From a virus: a stretch of DNA of 24,567 nt. This document shows positions 2,235 through 15,377 of this stretch, one piece after another. The position numbers were made by a program, and so were the translations under genes. Location: positions 1 to 24,567 of the IMG/VR virus record IMGVR_UViG_3300036931_000002; one strand, written 5' to 3'. Within the stretch, counting starts at the first letter, position 1. Every line of letters begins with the position of its first letter. Under the pieces are notes generated by a model. The model saw nothing but the letters and a program-made list of their open reading frames with translations. It searched no databases and was not told the origin of the DNA.

Positions 2235-2721
2235 AAATACTATCATGCCAGTTAAAAAAGACTCTATACAAAAGGATGCACCAAAAAACGCCGAAGAAAC
2301 GCGGAAAGACTATAAAATAGGTAAGGGTAAACCCCCAAAGGGTACGCCTTTCACAAGCGAGAATCAGCCTGATAACCCCGGAAGAAAGACGTCATTGCTC
2401 AAAAAGTGGATAAAAGATAACGGTATCAGCATTCAGGACGTTCGCCTTGTAATGAAGGGTATCATTATGGATAACAACATAGATGACCTTAAAAAGATAG
2501 GCGACGATCCTACAGAATCAATGCTAACCCGAACGATTATAAAGGCGTACTTGAAAGACTTTGAAGCTGGAAGGATAGATACCCTCAATTCAATACTTGA
2601 CAGGGTGTACGGCAAAGCTAATCAGGATATAAACCTTTCAGGGGAGTTTACGACAGTGACAATAACAGCCAAAGAAAGGGCAGACAGAATAGCGCAACTT
2701 AAAAAAGAATTGGAAGAATGA
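2224..2721 (+). CDS. terS: Terminase small subunit (probable)
   Basis: This 165-residue protein is the likely DNA-recognition subunit of the packaging motor. Its N terminus has a disordered basic stretch ending in FTSENQPDNPGRK, close to the GxxSGNPxGRP motif (DUF5681-like) seen at the start of many terminase small subunits and related phage proteins. The middle is helical, and the C terminus is a charged helix (ERADRIAQLKKELEE) that could contact the large subunit. The assignment relies mainly on position: it ends 4 nt inside the large terminase gene. The first ATG at 2224 has AGAAG upstream; an alternative ATG lies at 2245. Confidence 0.7.
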   Translation: MSTKNTIMPVKKDSIQKDAPKNAEETRKDYKIGKGKPPKGTPFTSENQPDNPGRKTSLLKKWIKDNGISIQDVRLVMKGIIMDNNIDDLKKIGDDPTESMLTRTIIKAYLKDFEAGRIDTLNSILDRVYGKANQDINLSGEFTTVTITAKERADRIAQLKKELEE

Positions 2722-3983
2722 CAGAGAAAGAACGGGAATTAAAAGAACTTGAATTGATAGGATTACTAGAGCAAGAAAAGCGCGAACAAATAATATCAAA
2801 GTTAAACATATTCAAAGAACCCGCTCGATATAAGTTAGTTCATGGTGGGCGGGGATCTGGTAAATCACAATCAATAGCAAGTCTAATAGTCCAGAAAGCG
2901 CAAGTACAAGAGGTAAAGGTGCTTTGTGCCCGAGAAATTCAATATTCATTGGAGGAGTCTGTATATGCCCTCATCGTTGAAACTATTGGTAAACTGCAAT
3001 ATCTTGGTTGGAAGATAACCAAAGAAGGGATAGAGCATCAAAATGGCAGTCGATTTATATTCAGAGGCTTAAAAGATTTACGAGCCGCTGATAGCGTCAA
3101 GAGCATGGAAGGTATAGATATATGCTGGCTAGAAGAGGCTCAAAACATATCAAGGCAATCTCTGAAGATACTTGTACCTACTATTCGTAAGGACGGAAGC
3201 GAGATATGGGCAAGCTGGAATCCAGAAACAGAAAGTGATCCGATAATGGAGTTAGCAGAAAAGCCGGATGCAGTTGTTGTAGAGTTAAACTGGCAAGATA
3301 ATAAATGGTTTCCTAAAGTACTCAAGAAAGAAATGGAAGACGACTTTATAAAGAATCCTGATGAAGCAGAACATACGTGGAATGGACTGCCACGAAAACA
3401 AGGTGATAATTGTGTGTTTTCCAGGACATCTATCCGGGCGGCAATGGATAGAGAAGCAACGGAAGAAGGTGCTACGGAAGTTGGTCTTGATGTCGCGCGT
3501 TTTGGTGGAGATACAACTCAAGGCTATAAACGGAAGGGAATGAAAATAGTTGACCACTTTGAACTGTCAAAGGCAGATACGAATGAAGTTGTCGATAGGC
3601 TTTATATGTTCGTTCAGGGTAATACGAGTGTATCATGCAAAATAGATGAGGGTTATAATCCCGGCGTGGTTGACGTTGCCAAGGCAAAGGGTATCAATGT
3701 CGAGGCTGTTTCTTTCGGTGGACAAGCAAGCTACCCAGAATTATACCCAAACAAAATAAGTGAAATGTGGTTTACCTTTCCAATCAACGAGGCTCAAATA
3801 CCTAATGACCTGGACATAATGGAACAGATGAGCGACAGACGATATAAATATGATAACAAGGGCAGACGATGCATCGAGCCTAAAGATGACTATAAGAAAC
3901 GGCATGGCGGTAAAAGTCCTGATAAAATTGACGCACTTTTATTAGCCTTCTATGAACAGCATACCTCATGGGCATTACTATAG
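2718..3983 (+). CDS. terL: Terminase large subunit (packaging ATPase and nuclease)
   Basis: This 421-residue protein pumps DNA into the prohead and cuts it. Walker A is HGGRGSGKS at residues 42-50, and Walker B is IDICWLEEA at about residues 134-142. The C-terminal RNase H-like nuclease shows its acidic residues in GLDVARFGGD, KIDEGYNP and SPDKIDALLLAF. The length and motifs fit the PBSX/Terminase_3 family. It starts in an ATGA overlap with terS. The stop is TAG followed at once by TAA. Unusually, the portal does not follow: about 6 kb of accessory genes intervene. Confidence 0.95.
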   Translation: MTEKERELKELELIGLLEQEKREQIISKLNIFKEPARYKLVHGGRGSGKSQSIASLIVQKAQVQEVKVLCAREIQYSLEESVYALIVETIGKLQYLGWKITKEGIEHQNGSRFIFRGLKDLRAADSVKSMEGIDICWLEEAQNISRQSLKILVPTIRKDGSEIWASWNPETESDPIMELAEKPDAVVVELNWQDNKWFPKVLKKEMEDDFIKNPDEAEHTWNGLPRKQGDNCVFSRTSIRAAMDREATEEGATEVGLDVARFGGDTTQGYKRKGMKIVDHFELSKADTNEVVDRLYMFVQGNTSVSCKIDEGYNPGVVDVAKAKGINVEAVSFGGQASYPELYPNKISEMWFTFPINEAQIPNDLDIMEQMSDRRYKYDNKGRRCIEPKDDYKKRHGGKSPDKIDALLLAFYEQHTSWALL

Positions 3984-7507: not shown

Positions 7508-7815
7508 ATGAAATCAAGAATACTGTACGCGTACAAGTTTGTTATGAAGAGGGTTGTGACTTATCAGAAAAAGAATACTCGCTGGAAATAATCGGGTTTA
7601 TCGGATCACTGGATATATCTGATATTGATGAACACAATGGAGTTGGAGACGGTGCGCTGATTCGTGAAGCGGTCTATGAATGGATTGACGCGGATAAATT
7701 GCCGAAAGGACAAACCGTCATAACTCTTGACCTGAAAGAATCAGGTGAGTGGGAAGATGTGTTCTGGCACAAATACTACATTGTAGAAGCATACAAAGTT
7801 GATAAACTAACATAA
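7504..7815 (+). CDS. Hypothetical acidic protein (103 aa)
   Basis: No family recognised. The protein is acidic, with beta-like segments (NTVRVQVCYEEG, QTVITLDLKESG) and an aromatic C-terminal part (EDVFWHKYYIVEAYKV). The length and strong negative charge would suit a DNA-mimic or small binding protein, but nothing specific shows that. It is the last gene of the second accessory module. Tandem repeats and a terminator follow within 70 nt. Confidence 0.6.
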   Translation: MNEIKNTVRVQVCYEEGCDLSEKEYSLEIIGFIGSLDISDIDEHNGVGDGALIREAVYEWIDADKLPKGQTVITLDLKESGEWEDVFWHKYYIVEAYKVDKLT

Positions 7816-7820
7816 ATAGT

Positions 7821-7850
7821 TTGCAATCACTTGCAATAACTTGCAATCCC
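7821..7850. repeat. Three tandem 10-bp direct repeats
   Basis: TTGCAATCAC, TTGCAATAAC and TTGCAATCCC follow each other with no gap. The TTGCAAT core is identical in all three and recurs every 10 bp, close to one helical turn, as expected for protein sites on one face of the DNA. Confidence 0.8.
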
Positions 7851-7856
7851 CTCCAT

Positions 7857-7886
7857 CGCCTCCCGCTTGCGGAGGCGTTTTTATTT
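7857..7886 (+). terminator. Intrinsic terminator of the second accessory module
   Basis: CGCCTCC (7857-7863) pairs with GGAGGCG (7871-7877) around a 7-nt loop and is followed by TTTTTATTT (7878-7886). Confidence 0.85.
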
Positions 7887-8445
7887 ATCAGGTGTTACGT
7901 ATTGCTTAGTTGGTGGAGTGGTTGGTCAAGGTTGGTAGATATTCGATTGGTGGGATTATATCTTTGGACAAGCCGAAAGATCCTCACGCAGTAAATGCGC
8001 AAGAATCCGGCGGTTTCCAACTTGCTTATATTCGACCGGAGCCGATCATAGAGCCTTGGACAGTAAGTCACGTTAGCTACTTACCGATTGATAGATTAAC
8101 ATGCTAACGCACGGCACAACTCCCGCTCTATCGACTTCGCCTCTCCGGTGGAAGGTATGTTTTATTGGAGCAAGTCGCTTTTCGCGTTGTCGTCTGCTCT
8201 CCCATACCGATGGTCACGTTGTGTTATCCCCTTGACCCCTCAGACAATAAATCAGGTAAGTGTCAGCATTTCAGCCCGTACCCCGATTGACTCCGGTAAA
8301 TAAAAAGCCCTTTGGCAATCTATTTTCGGTTGGAAGCCGAGACACTCGTATAGGCGTGTACCAATAGATTCCCAAAGGGATTCTTGTATTCTATACGAAT
8401 AGTCGCGGAGTTCCAAGTCCGTGCGTTGACTTTCATCAACAAAAG
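7887..8445. ncRNA. Candidate large structured phage RNA
   Basis: No convincing gene lies between 7816 and 8593, yet this part is dense in complementary segments and visibly richer in G+C than its flanks. Seen pairings include: 7927-7935 with 8017-8024; ATCTTTGG 7960-7967 with 7973-7981; CGCA/TGCG at 7987-7999; GTAAGT 8063-8068 with 8079-8084, whose loop segment CGTTAGC (8071-8077) matches GCTAACG at 8103-8109; GGTATG 8154-8159 with 8203-8208; a 17-bp stem at 8308-8324 with 8363-8379 (one mismatch) enclosing two small hairpins, with loop segment CGTATAG (8347-8353) matching CTATACG at 8391-8397; and GTTGA/TCAAC at 8425-8440. Two loop-to-flank matches imply pseudoknots. Size, phage setting and complexity resemble the large phage RNA classes GOLLD and ROOL, but I cannot assign it. 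Strand is uncertain; neighbouring genes favour +. Confidence 0.5.
8298..8379 (-). terminator. Possible minus-strand intrinsic terminator
   Basis: Read on the minus strand, the 17-bp stem formed by 8379-8363 and 8324-8308 is followed immediately by CTTTTTATTTA (8307-8297), the same T-tract as the + strand terminators here. It could end a minus-strand transcript starting near 8520. Alternatively it is just one arm of the structured RNA with an A-rich linker. The 38-nt loop holds two further hairpins, which is unusual for a plain terminator. Confidence 0.45.
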
Positions 8446-8540
8446 AATAATAAATCACAATTAAAAACAAATACAGACTGTGGGTTAAACAACTTATATT
8501 AAAACAAGTATTACTTTGCACACTGTTAACATAAACAGGA

Positions 8541-8569
8541 TTGTGTTATTTATAAAACCCTCCCATACT
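8541..8569 (+). promoter_or_regulatory. Weak promoter candidate before the ferritin-portal operon
   Basis: TTGTGT (8541-8546), a 17-bp spacer and CATACT (8564-8569) precede the gene at 8594. Both elements are imperfect. Nearby, CCCTC (8558-8562) and GAGGG (8580-8584) can pair around the predicted start. A promoter is expected here because a strong terminator lies upstream. Confidence 0.3.
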
Positions 8570-8593
8570 CTTTTGTAAGCGAGGGACGCCTTA

Positions 8594-8857
8594 ATGAACG
8601 ATTCATCTACCCGGACAAAACGGGTTTATACAAAGAAAATCGATAAAATAAATATCAATAACAGAATGATTAATTCTCTAATCAACAATGAAATGCTTGT
8701 TGGAAATCATTCATTAGCAGAATGTTGCCGGAATTGTAAATATATTCGTGGCAGTATCTGTAAAAGGTTCCCTCCTTGCATAGGTCAGACTGCATTTATT
8801 CAGCCGATGGTACAGGATACTGATTGGTGTGGATGCTTTGAAAGGGCGGGTAAATAA
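8594..8857 (+). CDS. Cysteine-rich protein (87 aa)
   Basis: The N-terminal third is basic (TRTKRVYTKKIDK). The C-terminal half carries seven cysteines: CCRNCKYIRGSICKRFPPC, then DWCGCFE. This resembles phage zinc-binding microproteins, and the arrangement is similar in style to the cysteine-rich genes at 6636-7507, although clear sequence identity is not seen. The ATG follows GAGGGA by about 8 nt. It is the first gene after the structured intergenic region. Function unknown; DNA or RNA contact through a zinc site is a guess. Confidence 0.65.
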   Translation: MNDSSTRTKRVYTKKIDKININNRMINSLINNEMLVGNHSLAECCRNCKYIRGSICKRFPPCIGQTAFIQPMVQDTDWCGCFERAGK

Positions 8858-9529: not shown

Positions 9530-10066
9530 ATGGGCGTTATATACGCTAATATCCTTTCATTACTTCAAGCTCAATACAAACACGAAATTAGCAACTACTT
9601 TCGATACCTTGCACGTTCCTCGTGGGCGCGATTTAGAGGGCTTGAGAATACCGGCGACTTCTTTGAAAAGGAAGCGGAAGGGGAAAAAGGACACGCGGAT
9701 ATCGTACGAAAGTACATTGAAGACCGTAATGAGGCACTTGATCCGGCAGGGCTGGTATTCGCTGATTCAAGCCTCTTCGCTACTTTCGACGAACTCTTTA
9801 CCACTGCGCAGATAGTGGAGCGCGAGACCACAGACAGTCTACAAGCCATTTATGCAGAATCATTCAAAGCAGGCGACTACATGACTTGTGAATGGATGAT
9901 GAAGCTCATTAAAGAACAGGTTCTCGAAGAATCAGAATACCAAACCATCATTGACCGTATCGTCCAGCGTGGCGGTGGCATTGGACAAGAGGAATCAATC
10001 AAGGCTTTCCGAAATGACATATCAGCCGTTCACGACATAGATTTATTTCTGGGTGAACGCGCATAA
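9530..10066 (+). CDS. Phage-encoded ferritin
   Basis: This 178-residue protein is a full-length non-haem ferritin, which oxidises Fe(II) and stores iron in a 24-subunit cage. Aligned by eye with E. coli FtnA, the ferroxidase ligands are present: E19 (FtnA E17), E52 (E50), H55 (H53), E97 (E94), Q130 (Q127) and E133 (E130). E129 matches E126, while FtnA E49 is replaced by G51, so the third iron site is altered. Helix patterns QYKHEISNYFRYLARSSWA, GEKGHADIVRKYIEDRN and KEQVLEESEYQTIIDRI are typical, and the C terminus AVHDIDLFLGERA matches the final helix of ferritins. Its stop overlaps the portal start (TAATG), so it is coupled to virion genes. Whether it enters virions is unknown. Confidence 0.88.
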   Translation: MGVIYANILSLLQAQYKHEISNYFRYLARSSWARFRGLENTGDFFEKEAEGEKGHADIVRKYIEDRNEALDPAGLVFADSSLFATFDELFTTAQIVERETTDSLQAIYAESFKAGDYMTCEWMMKLIKEQVLEESEYQTIIDRIVQRGGGIGQEESIKAFRNDISAVHDIDLFLGERA

Positions 10067-12207
10067 TGGGACTTTTTGGGAAAGGCTCAACATTAACAAA
10101 CATAATCGCTCGGGCTAGGGACTCACTGAAAGTACAGTGGAGTATGCCCCCTAGCCGGACAACTGCTTTATGGACTGATATATTCCACAAGAATACAATG
10201 CTAGATCCCGTCGACATGATCGCACGGGATTTTTCTGTTTGTACATTCAAGCTTTTTAATAAAGTCCAGTATCGTGTAGACCCACAGAACGCAAAGCCAA
10301 TAGGCGACAGTCTTATATATGACCTGTGGGAAAACCCCATGCCTGATCATCCCGAAGTTGATATGCAGTCCGTGCTTTACCTTACGTCGGCATATTACGA
10401 AATACTCGGAGAATGTTTTTGGCTTATTGATAAAGACGAACGTGGCAGACCCGCGGGTATTTTTATCATCCCGCCTCTATGGGTATTACTTACTCCAACG
10501 CAAGCCGTGCCGTATTTCAGGATTCAACCATTAGGGAATACCGCTTATAAATATTTCAACGCAGACCCGCAAGATGTTGTCTGGTTCAAATCGCCTGACC
10601 TTAATAATCCCTACGGGCGCGGGCGTGGACACGCGGAACCAATGGGCGACGCTATCGATACGCATGAGTATTCAGAGAAATACGCAAAGCGATTATTTTA
10701 CAACGATGCTACTCCTCCAGTAATATTTGAAATGCCCGGAATTTCTAAGCCTGATGCCGATGCATTCAAAGAATCATGGATGCAGAAATTAGGTGGGATG
10801 CTTAACGCATACAAGCCGGGAATAGTTTCACAAAAAGACTTTAAGGTTCACCAACTCGCAACCAGCCCGAAAGAGATGGACTTCACGGAGTCACGCAAGT
10901 ATTTAGTACAGACTGCCAACGAGCATTGGTGCGTACCTCCCGAAATGCGCGGTAACTTACAGAACTCGAATAGAGCAACAATTGATAGTGCTTATTATCT
11001 TTGGACAAAGAACGTAGTAGCAAAAAGGCTAAAGATTATAGCATCACAAATAAATAGAATGTTCATCCCTATGTTTGATACGAACATAATATTTGTTTAT
11101 GACGAAATTGTTCCAGAAGACAAAGAATCTAAAATGAAGATCGCCAATGATGGATTAGAAAAAGGATCGTTAACTCTTAACGAATGGAGAAAGATTGCCA
11201 GTATTTGCGGTGTTCAGCTCTTGCCAGATATTCAGCGCGGTGATGTTTACTTGCGTCAATTCTCAGTAACGGAAGTACCAGCAAACAAGAAAGAAGTAAT
11301 AACAGAACCAATCGCGGAACCCGTTAAGCCTGCTAAGGAAGAAACGCCAGTCGATGAAACTATCGACCTTGGTAAATGTATTGCAGAGATTGAAGCCAAA
11401 ACAAAGGCTATGAAAAAGTCAACGTATACCGATGACCAGAAAACAGCATTTTGGAAATCATTCGATAATAAAGCAACGGCTCATGAACCACTGTTTGAAA
11501 AAGCAGTCAGTAAGTTTGCAGGAACTCAACAAAAAATAGTTAGGGATAAACTTAAAAACATTACGGACATTAAAGAAATAGATAGCATACTTGATTCTGT
11601 ATTCAATGATAAAGCCAATGAAGCATTCAAACGTTCCCTTGCTCCGGCATGGCTTGCAACGATGAACGCGGGGAAGGATATTGCTCAATCATCCCTCAAG
11701 GAAAAAAAATCCGTAAAGAATGATTCACAAGTCTATAACAAACTTTTCAACGCATGGGTAGATAAAAACGGTATGCAGAAATGCACCTACATGAACGATA
11801 CGACAAAGAAGAAACTAGCCGCACGATTGTCTGATTCCATTGAAGAAGGCCAAGGACTTCAACAGCAGATAAAAAATATCCTTGATGCTTGCGATGGTGT
11901 GTATGATGAAATGACCACAACACGGGCAAAGCTGATAGCGCGTACAGAATCATGCAGTACAGAAAATTTTGGTATTGTGTCAACGTACAAAATTGAGGGC
12001 GTGGAATACAAAAGTTGGCTTGCAACTCTTGACGAAAGGACAAGGGACGATCACTCAGAAGCAGAAGAAGATAATCAAGACATTCCAATTGATGATCCTT
12101 TTATTGTTGGCGGGGAAGAAATGGATTATCCCGGCGATCCTGACGCAGACGTTGGCCAGATCGCAAATTGCAGATGTACCGTATTAGCCTCATGGGGCAA
12201 TGATTAA
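10066..12207 (+). CDS. Portal protein fused to SPP1 gp7/Mu F-like head morphogenesis domain
   Basis: A 713-residue fusion. Residues about 1-400 are an HK97-type portal, the ring at the capsid vertex through which DNA enters: RDFSVCTFKLF, DVVWFKSPDLNNPYGRGRG and the late ENSNRATIDS-like stretch (LQNSNRATIDSAYYLW) are characteristic. A proline/glutamate-rich linker at about 415-440 leads to a helical region and a C-terminal minor head domain with ARTESCSTENFG, SWLATLDERTRDDHSEAE and the ending PGDPDADVGQIANCRC, typical of the gp7/Mu F family that is injected or helps head assembly. Many phages encode these as two genes. The start overlaps the ferritin stop. Confidence 0.92.
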   Translation: MGLFGKGSTLTNIIARARDSLKVQWSMPPSRTTALWTDIFHKNTMLDPVDMIARDFSVCTFKLFNKVQYRVDPQNAKPIGDSLIYDLWENPMPDHPEVDMQSVLYLTSAYYEILGECFWLIDKDERGRPAGIFIIPPLWVLLTPTQAVPYFRIQPLGNTAYKYFNADPQDVVWFKSPDLNNPYGRGRGHAEPMGDAIDTHEYSEKYAKRLFYNDATPPVIFEMPGISKPDADAFKESWMQKLGGMLNAYKPGIVSQKDFKVHQLATSPKEMDFTESRKYLVQTANEHWCVPPEMRGNLQNSNRATIDSAYYLWTKNVVAKRLKIIASQINRMFIPMFDTNIIFVYDEIVPEDKESKMKIANDGLEKGSLTLNEWRKIASICGVQLLPDIQRGDVYLRQFSVTEVPANKKEVITEPIAEPVKPAKEETPVDETIDLGKCIAEIEAKTKAMKKSTYTDDQKTAFWKSFDNKATAHEPLFEKAVSKFAGTQQKIVRDKLKNITDIKEIDSILDSVFNDKANEAFKRSLAPAWLATMNAGKDIAQSSLKEKKSVKNDSQVYNKLFNAWVDKNGMQKCTYMNDTTKKKLAARLSDSIEEGQGLQQQIKNILDACDGVYDEMTTTRAKLIARTESCSTENFGIVSTYKIEGVEYKSWLATLDERTRDDHSEAEEDNQDIPIDDPFIVGGEEMDYPGDPDADVGQIANCRCTVLASWGND

Positions 12208-14126: not shown

Positions 14127-15377
14127 ATGGCAGACACAGCAGTTAGCATTTCCCAAACTGAGGAAATGAAAAAGCTCGATAATTATATCGAAGCAAAGAT
14201 GAAAGAGATCGAAGCGTCAAAAGCAAACGATCCACTGGTTAAAGAAAAAGTAGCCTTGCAGACGAAATACGCGGAAGCAATGGCAAACGCCAATTTGCAG
14301 GAAATGAAGAAAGGACAGAAGTCAGAATCTGACCTGAACCGTTTCGGCGCGTTCGCTTCGATCGTTCTTCGCTCCAACAACGACAAGGGACTCGCCTTGC
14401 AGATTGCGGAAAAGGATTATAAAAACGATCCCTTTATTGTTGAGAGCTTCAAAGCACTTTCAACCGGAACGCCGTCCGAAGGTGGATTCTTTGTACCGGA
14501 AGTTCTTTCTTCCATCGTTATCGATACCCTTAACCCTAATCTGATTTATACTCAGATGGGTTCAACTCGTATCGAAATGTCCGGTGGAAATATGAACATC
14601 CCCCGATTCGATGCAAGGGCGGCGGCAACCTATATCGGTGAAGCAAAAGCGGCTGTTTCCTCCAAGCAGGTTATCGGTAACATTCGCGGATCGAGCAAGA
14701 AACTTTCTGCAATCATCCCGATATCCAACGATCTTATTCGTAACGCCAATCCGTCTTTCTCTGGGTATGTTCAGAACAGTTTGATTACTACTCTGAAACT
14801 CAAGAAAGACTATACCGCACTGTATGGAACCGGTGGAGAAAACTCTCCCGCTGGTATCAAAACACAGCTTACCTCAACGGAAAAGATCGGTTCGTCCAGT
14901 ACCGTATTTACCGCCGATACCCCGGCTGATATGCTTGGTGCTCTCATGGCAAAAGATGCTCCGATGACCAGCGTTGGATTCGCGTTCAATGGTTGGCACT
15001 GGAAGTATCTGTATAACCTCAAGACCACAACCGGCGCATACATTTTCCGCGACGAAATGAATCAGGGAAAATTGCTTGGTCAGAAGTTCATCGTTTCCAA
15101 TCAGATTTATTCCGACAACCTTGCCGGAAAGACTGCACCGACTACTAGCAACTACGGCGAAATGTTCCTCGGAGATTGGAGCGAGTTCATTGAGTTCGTT
15201 CAGCTCGACATGGAACTGATGGCATTCAAGGAAGCATCGTTCACGGATGAAAACAGCAACACCGTGTCCTGCATGGCTAACGACTTGACCGCTCTACGTG
15301 CAATCTGCTTGCATGACTTCGGACTCAAGCACATTGATTCGTTCATCATGAGCACCAACAAGTATTCAGCGACCTAA
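14127..15377 (+). CDS. Major capsid protein, HK97 fold
   Basis: A 416-residue HK97-type capsid protein. Residues 1-110 form a helical, charged delta-like domain (MKEIEASKANDPLVKEKVAL), normally removed by the protease. The shell domain begins near residue 115 with TPSEGGFFVPEVLSSIVID and continues with SGGNMNIPRFDARAAATYIGE, DLIRNANPSFSGYV and LKKDYTALYGTGGENSPAGI, all typical. It directly follows the protease gene. Strong purine codon ends and a downstream hairpin pair fit high expression. Confidence 0.95.
   Translation: MADTAVSISQTEEMKKLDNYIEAKMKEIEASKANDPLVKEKVALQTKYAEAMANANLQEMKKGQKSESDLNRFGAFASIVLRSNNDKGLALQIAEKDYKNDPFIVESFKALSTGTPSEGGFFVPEVLSSIVIDTLNPNLIYTQMGSTRIEMSGGNMNIPRFDARAAATYIGEAKAAVSSKQVIGNIRGSSKKLSAIIPISNDLIRNANPSFSGYVQNSLITTLKLKKDYTALYGTGGENSPAGIKTQLTSTEKIGSSSTVFTADTPADMLGALMAKDAPMTSVGFAFNGWHWKYLYNLKTTTGAYIFRDEMNQGKLLGQKFIVSNQIYSDNLAGKTAPTTSNYGEMFLGDWSEFIEFVQLDMELMAFKEASFTDENSNTVSCMANDLTALRAICLHDFGLKHIDSFIMSTNKYSAT

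Follow-up and report, generated by a model that had tools for sequence, protein, structure and literature searches.

What does a phage keep in a stretch of its genome that holds no credible gene? To our knowledge, only a handful of large, ornate RNA types have been recognized in phages. The window (the whole stretch of 24,567 nucleotides analyzed here, from an IMG/VR virus record) derives from a tailed phage with terminase (2718–3983), portal (10066–12207) and major capsid protein (14127–15377) genes, its genes being located on the + strand. The initial annotation had singled out its gene-free stretch as a possible large RNA, and all of the features that it named are present in the sequence; the strand, which it had left open, is most likely the minus strand. 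The reading that we favor, with a probability of roughly 0.6, is a free-standing noncoding RNA of the phage, some 450–520 nt long, encoded on the minus strand and belonging to a modular family that is absent from Rfam.

The gene-free stretch and its strand

No credible ORF is found in 7816–8593; the flanking genes end at 7815 and begin at 8594, and the gap is situated on the terminase–portal side of the genome. A + strand terminator hairpin (7857–7877) closes the upstream + strand genes. The relative L003 (85% identity in the portal protein) shares these neighbors and contains a homologous gene-free stretch at the same place; over 355 nt the two stretches are 72% identical, with greater divergence in the rest. 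The small ORFs of the gap are not conserved, since indels of 1–2 nt in the alignment with L003 break their frames. The region is thus free of a conserved reading frame, as had been proposed.

Comparison of folding energies with shuffled sequences, a check suggested in the initial annotation, gave a divided answer: the + strand is ordinary (z −1.0, with 17 of 100 shuffles as good), whereas the minus strand folds better than most shuffles (z −2.0, with 3 of 100 as good; −3.0 in a separate run). L003 and a second relative, L043, likewise favor the minus strand (z −3.3 and −6.2, respectively). The two strands differ by only 1.2–2.0 standard deviations in each sequence (window, L003 and L043), so the assignment draws jointly on energy, the U-tract and G-U pairs and, in relatives, on promoter and neighbor orientation. 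In the hairpin between the repeats X and X′ (see below), whose helix is kept in L003, G-U pairs favor the minus strand, and a TATAAT promoter and same-strand neighbor genes in relatives agree with this reading. RNAalifold, applied to the plain alignment of the window with L003, gave significant results for both strands and did not discriminate between them. The RNA is therefore likely to be encoded on the minus strand, opposite to the phage genes.

Crossing helices and paired repeats

The features of the element are listed below in the 5′ to 3′ order of the RNA. The 5′ end of the element is uncertain, between about 8400 and 8510, while its 3′ end falls directly after X′.

7932–8445, minus strand: whole RNA element, placed from the gene-free gap, the homologous stretch of L003 and the minus-strand folding bias
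8391–8401, minus strand: pseudoknot strand a, UAUUCGUAUAG, core UCGUAUAG; CCGUGCC instead in L003
8363–8379, minus strand: 5′ strand of helix b, CCCUUUGGGAAUCUAUU, from sequence complementarity
8343–8353, minus strand: pseudoknot strand a′, CUAUACGAGUG, within the loop of helix b; GGCACGG instead in L003
8308–8324, minus strand: 3′ strand of helix b, AAUAGAUUGCCAAAGGG, from sequence complementarity
8298–8307, minus strand: terminator-like U-tract after helix b, CUUUUUAUUU, from sequence; order kept in relatives
8103–8110, minus strand: 5′ strand of H2, GCGUUAGC, pairing with the H1 loop; two compensatory pairs versus L003
8063–8084, minus strand: hairpin H1, GUAAGU (8079–8084) with ACUUAC (8063–8068); three compensatory pairs versus L003
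8054–8061, minus strand: 5′ strand of H3, within GUCCAAGG, partner UUGGA inside 8012–8020; two compensatory pairs versus L003
8028–8043, minus strand: GGCUCCG followed by direct repeat X (UCGAAUAU, 8028–8035); kept in relatives
7968–8025, minus strand: hairpin between X and X′, outer GCAAGUU/GGCUUGU, inner 7996–8007 with 7979–7990; helix kept in L003
7939–7952, minus strand: CACCA followed by direct repeat X′ (UCGAAUAU, 7939–7946), the 3′ boundary, from comparison with relatives

In the RNA sense (the minus strand of the window), the 5′ module has the order a-b-a′-b′, with the helices crossing, followed by the U-tract. The long stem described in the initial annotation is present, with arms (8302–8324 and 8363–8385) that are 87% complementary, and the two loop-to-flank matches that it had noticed (8343–8353 with 8391–8401, and 8070–8077 with 8103–8110) both proved to be pseudoknots with compensatory change relative to L003. 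The first, a/a′, is UCGUAUAG/CUAUACGA in the window versus CCGUGCC/GGCACGG in L003, a compensatory replacement of both strands as a pair. Across 14 members, in each of which the a and a′ stretches were picked as best matches, the mean complementarity is 20.1 for a member's own strands versus 14.2 for swapped partners. The a-b-a′-b′-U-tract arrangement of the window scores 58; among 150 dinucleotide-shuffled versions of the window region, none scored as high. The strong threshold of the pseudoknot finder was passed by 14 of 24 family loci (some of them closely related to each other), compared to 4 of 3600 shuffles (about 0.1%) and 16 of 1896 control windows. The U-tract is placed as in the window in L003, L065–L067, L073–L079, L081–L083, L086 and L087. 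L067, with a bulged stem, and L080, L084 and L085, which have no U-tract, escaped the finder and their modules were read by hand; in L043 and L053 the finder located no 5′ module.

Judged from the sequence, helix b with its U-tract resembles an intrinsic terminator whose loop is pseudoknotted, so that the earlier view of such loop matches as hard to explain by terminators calls for caution. One match among the control windows, on the minus strand of L030 (about 1050–1230), a phage contig that carries a related portal gene, consists of a TATAAT, a pseudoknot and a U-tract directly before a VapE-like gene. It resembles the 5′ module alone and looks real.

The second pseudoknot is located in the 3′ domain, where the loop of H1 contains the 3′ strand of H2 (GCUAACGU, 8070–8077). 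H2 also changes in a compensatory manner, being GCGUUAGC/GCUAACGU in the window versus GCGUAAAC/GUUUACGU in L003. The covariation that the initial annotation had asked to be sought is thus present: in the 3′ half, the window and L003 differ by at least two compensatory pairs in each of four helices, a result matched by 0 of 100 column shuffles (mean 0.52). The fourth of these candidates (GUUGU with GCAAU), which spans most of the 3′ domain, may be due to chance. H3 and H4 share two bases and may alternate. The Vibrio phage group, in an alignment of its own, contributes 15 covarying pairs, independent of the window/L003 comparison. We are confident that the element is a real, conserved, pseudoknotted phage RNA. 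A DNA-level element with hairpins, such as a replication origin, packaging or attachment site, would suit a gene-free gap on the terminase–portal side that adjoins conserved 10-bp direct repeats (7815–7854), but the covarying crossing helices, G-U pairs, strand bias, U-tract and the promoter in relatives point to RNA and render it most improbable.

The 3′ domain ends in GGCUCCG-X-hairpin-CACCA-X′, in which X and X′ are direct repeats that change together between phages. In the window both are UCGAAUAU, 89 nt apart; among members, the starts of X and X′ are separated by 67–93 nt. X is likewise identical to X′ in L003 (GCCGAAUAC), L043 (ACCGAAUAG) and the Vibrio phages 2.095.A (UCUCAUAGGU), 1.242.O (GUCAUAAG) and 1.240.O (AAGUCAUAAGGGU); the repeat of Xanthomonas phage Kintu is weaker (AAGCAG twice, by eye). 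GGCUCCG-X is conserved in L003, L043, L053, L067, L073–L076 and Kintu, and homology among the Vibrio phages stops just beyond X′. We also considered X as an antisense to the phage's own genome, and found neither enrichment nor a target in the window genome. A tmRNA- or tRNA-like ending, considered for the CACCA, was not found by ARAGORN.

Relatives and neighboring genes

Two sets of records count once each, L002, L006 and L052 being one near-identical contig and L043–L045 one near-identical set. An exact search of IMG/VR with a motif common to the window and L003 identified L043–L045, and a second form of the motif identified L053; what else matched was evidently coding or repetitive sequence. 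In both L043 and L053, the RNA is located just before a same-strand HNH gene, the two genes being homologous and a few bases from the RNA 3′ end. A tblastn search of annotated phages with these HNH proteins led to Vibrio phages 1.178.O, 1.276.O and 2.095.A, Kintu and Sulfitobacter phage phiGT1, each with an unannotated gap of 460–640 nt before the HNH gene; the membership of phiGT1 is the least certain. Pantoea and Microcystis phages from the same search have no such element. Further members, in Vibrio phages and Pseudoalteromonas phage H105/1, were identified by blastn with the 2.095.A RNA and others. In Vibrio phages 1.242.O and 1.240.O, a tRNA-Arg (UCU) gene (1397–1473 in both L075 and L076) sits between the two modules of the RNA. 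Separately, a promoter-like stretch, CCCACTTTGCATTTGTGTGGAGTGGGGTATATAAT, is observed at the RNA start in L067 (1245–1293) and in over 300 Vibrio phage records.

Blastn of the window region against phage and plasmid collections gave no match, and the portal relatives L004, L005 and L024–L040 contain no sequence homologue of the RNA. A scan of the genome_contigs collection with the 3′ motif returned six matches without CGAATA repeats, mostly in apparent coding sequence, and a second RNA pattern returned four beyond those known; both sets were taken as chance. With the window and L003 left out of its construction, a sequence profile of the 3′ end ranked L003 first (E 0.038) and the window second (E 0.17) in 33 kb, with weak scores, at the right place and on the right strand. 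The link across phage groups is based on module order and architecture together with short motifs, and the likeness of the Vibrio and window 3′ domains on the end motif. From these sequence features, the window RNA probably belongs in a single family with those of the Vibrio phages and Kintu.

The recurrence of HNH genes raises the possibility that the RNA is part of a mobile HNH endonuclease cassette, HEARO-like or intron-like, whose ORF is missing in the window phage. HNH genes follow the RNA in 1.178.O, 1.276.O, 2.095.A, Kintu and phiGT1, and the homologous genes of L043 and L053 begin within a few bases of its 3′ end. However, the share of HNH neighbors is inflated because HNH served as bait, and other members carry methylase, phosphoesterase or other genes at the same place; we dropped HNH as a dedicated partner once these were found. 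Moreover, no RuvC or PLMP part is present and the HEARO and group I intron models gave no match. We therefore regard a cassette of this kind as improbable.

The position of the RNA just upstream of a same-strand gene in several phages, the terminator-like sequence of helix b and U-tract, and the L030 module between TATAAT and a VapE-like gene would all suit a cis-acting leader, with the 5′ pseudoknot and U-tract as terminator or attenuator and the 3′ part as a further leader of the downstream cargo gene. Such a role is hard to see in the window, since no minus-strand gene lies downstream of the RNA there, or in L003. In addition, the RNA is kept while its neighbors vary (HNH, methylases, phosphoesterase, T5orf172-type), and three Vibrio copies have no U-tract. 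A leader is thus rather unlikely, and, mainly because no gene-like sequence follows the RNA in the window, we lean towards an RNA that acts in trans as a free-standing molecule.

Comparison with known RNAs and possible role

Scanning the RNAs of all members against the whole of Rfam 15 with cmscan gave no match, and lenient thresholds gave chance matches only; no Phage C4 or P4 immunity antisense RNA family was among them. The individual models for GOLLD (RF02032; E ≤ 10), ROOL (RF03087, with control genomes silent too) and HEARO (RF02033) found no match in nine records. The covariance model search proposed in the initial annotation was therefore negative throughout, and, of the two identities that it had offered, an unrelated new class is favored over membership in GOLLD or ROOL. 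Because its relatives and candidate relatives (other IMG/VR contigs, many Vibrio phages, Kintu and H105/1) are unannotated and Rfam holds no match, the family seems to represent a type of large viral RNA not described before. It did not turn up in a search of the open-access literature, and may have been described elsewhere.

In GOLLD, a tRNA can lie between the variable 5′ portion and the conserved 3′ portion (PMC12286853). The new RNA is likewise large and phage-encoded, with a conserved 3′ part, a less conserved 5′ part and sometimes a tRNA in the linker, but it is shorter, has a 5′ pseudoknot with U-tract and ends in GGCUCCG-X/CACCA-X′. ROOL, a phage and prophage RNA that is about 500–600 nt long, contains several pseudoknots and often lies close to tRNAs (PMC12286853), is similar in size and pseudoknot content; the modular 5′ pseudoknot-terminator does not figure in the ROOL description consulted. 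A very diverged member of either family would account for the phage location, the size, the conserved 3′ and variable 5′ parts and the intervening tRNA, but is very unlikely given that neither model nor cmscan gives a match. HEARO, or the omega RNA of IsrB, is comparable in being a structured RNA upstream of an HNH gene, as in several members here. In contrast, the proteins concerned are HNH endonucleases of the plain phage type, and other genes often take their place: in a search for an IsrB/IscB-type protein, Pfam shows only HNH (PF01844, HNH_5) beside the RNAs of relatives, and none beside the window copy. A long, ORF-less noncoding transcript is also the most abundant of the Vibrio phage ICP1 (PMC7567579); set side by side by description only, it differs in its length (about 800 nt) and in adjoining the lysis cluster.

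The free-standing RNA that we favor would be a transcription unit in its own right, read from the 8593 side. Its pseudoknotted 5′ end could form a compact, decay-resistant cap, and the U-tract might end some transcripts at about 100 nt, giving a small RNA, with others reading through to full length. A linker joins the 5′ module to the 3′ domain. This domain may act in trans and, with X in two identical copies, could offer a common RNA or protein target the same short sequence in duplicate. The X segments could even be paired guides of a re-programmable trans-acting RNA, with one target sequence recognized twice and both copies re-set together in each phage lineage. This idea is highly speculative and we give it little credence; if true, the RNA would be unlike GOLLD, ROOL or ordinary antisense RNAs. 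By analogy, its way of life would resemble that of GOLLD and ROOL, as a large, structured, non-messenger RNA in a spot of variable cargo, sometimes with a tRNA between modules.

The family is compact, modular and spread over phages of several hosts. It includes described isolates (the Nahant Vibrio phages) and is therefore open to direct testing; the separable modules and co-changing repeats provide concrete handles on the role of such RNAs.

Some minor observations concern the surroundings of the RNA. A promoter search of the window gave one weak, unconvincing site (shuffles give 1.7). A conserved noncoding block (8494–8590; 76% identical in L003) separates the RNA from the + strand gene that follows, and may hold the promoter of either. 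A ferritin-like gene (PF00210; 9530–10066) lies directly upstream of the portal gene; L003 has the same neighbor, as do L004 and L005 judging by eye. Just beyond the RNA 3′ end, 7815–7854 consists of three tandem 10-bp repeats of the TTGCAATMAC type, possibly an operator or iteron, which are almost invariant in L003, whereas the adjoining RNA is far more diverged.
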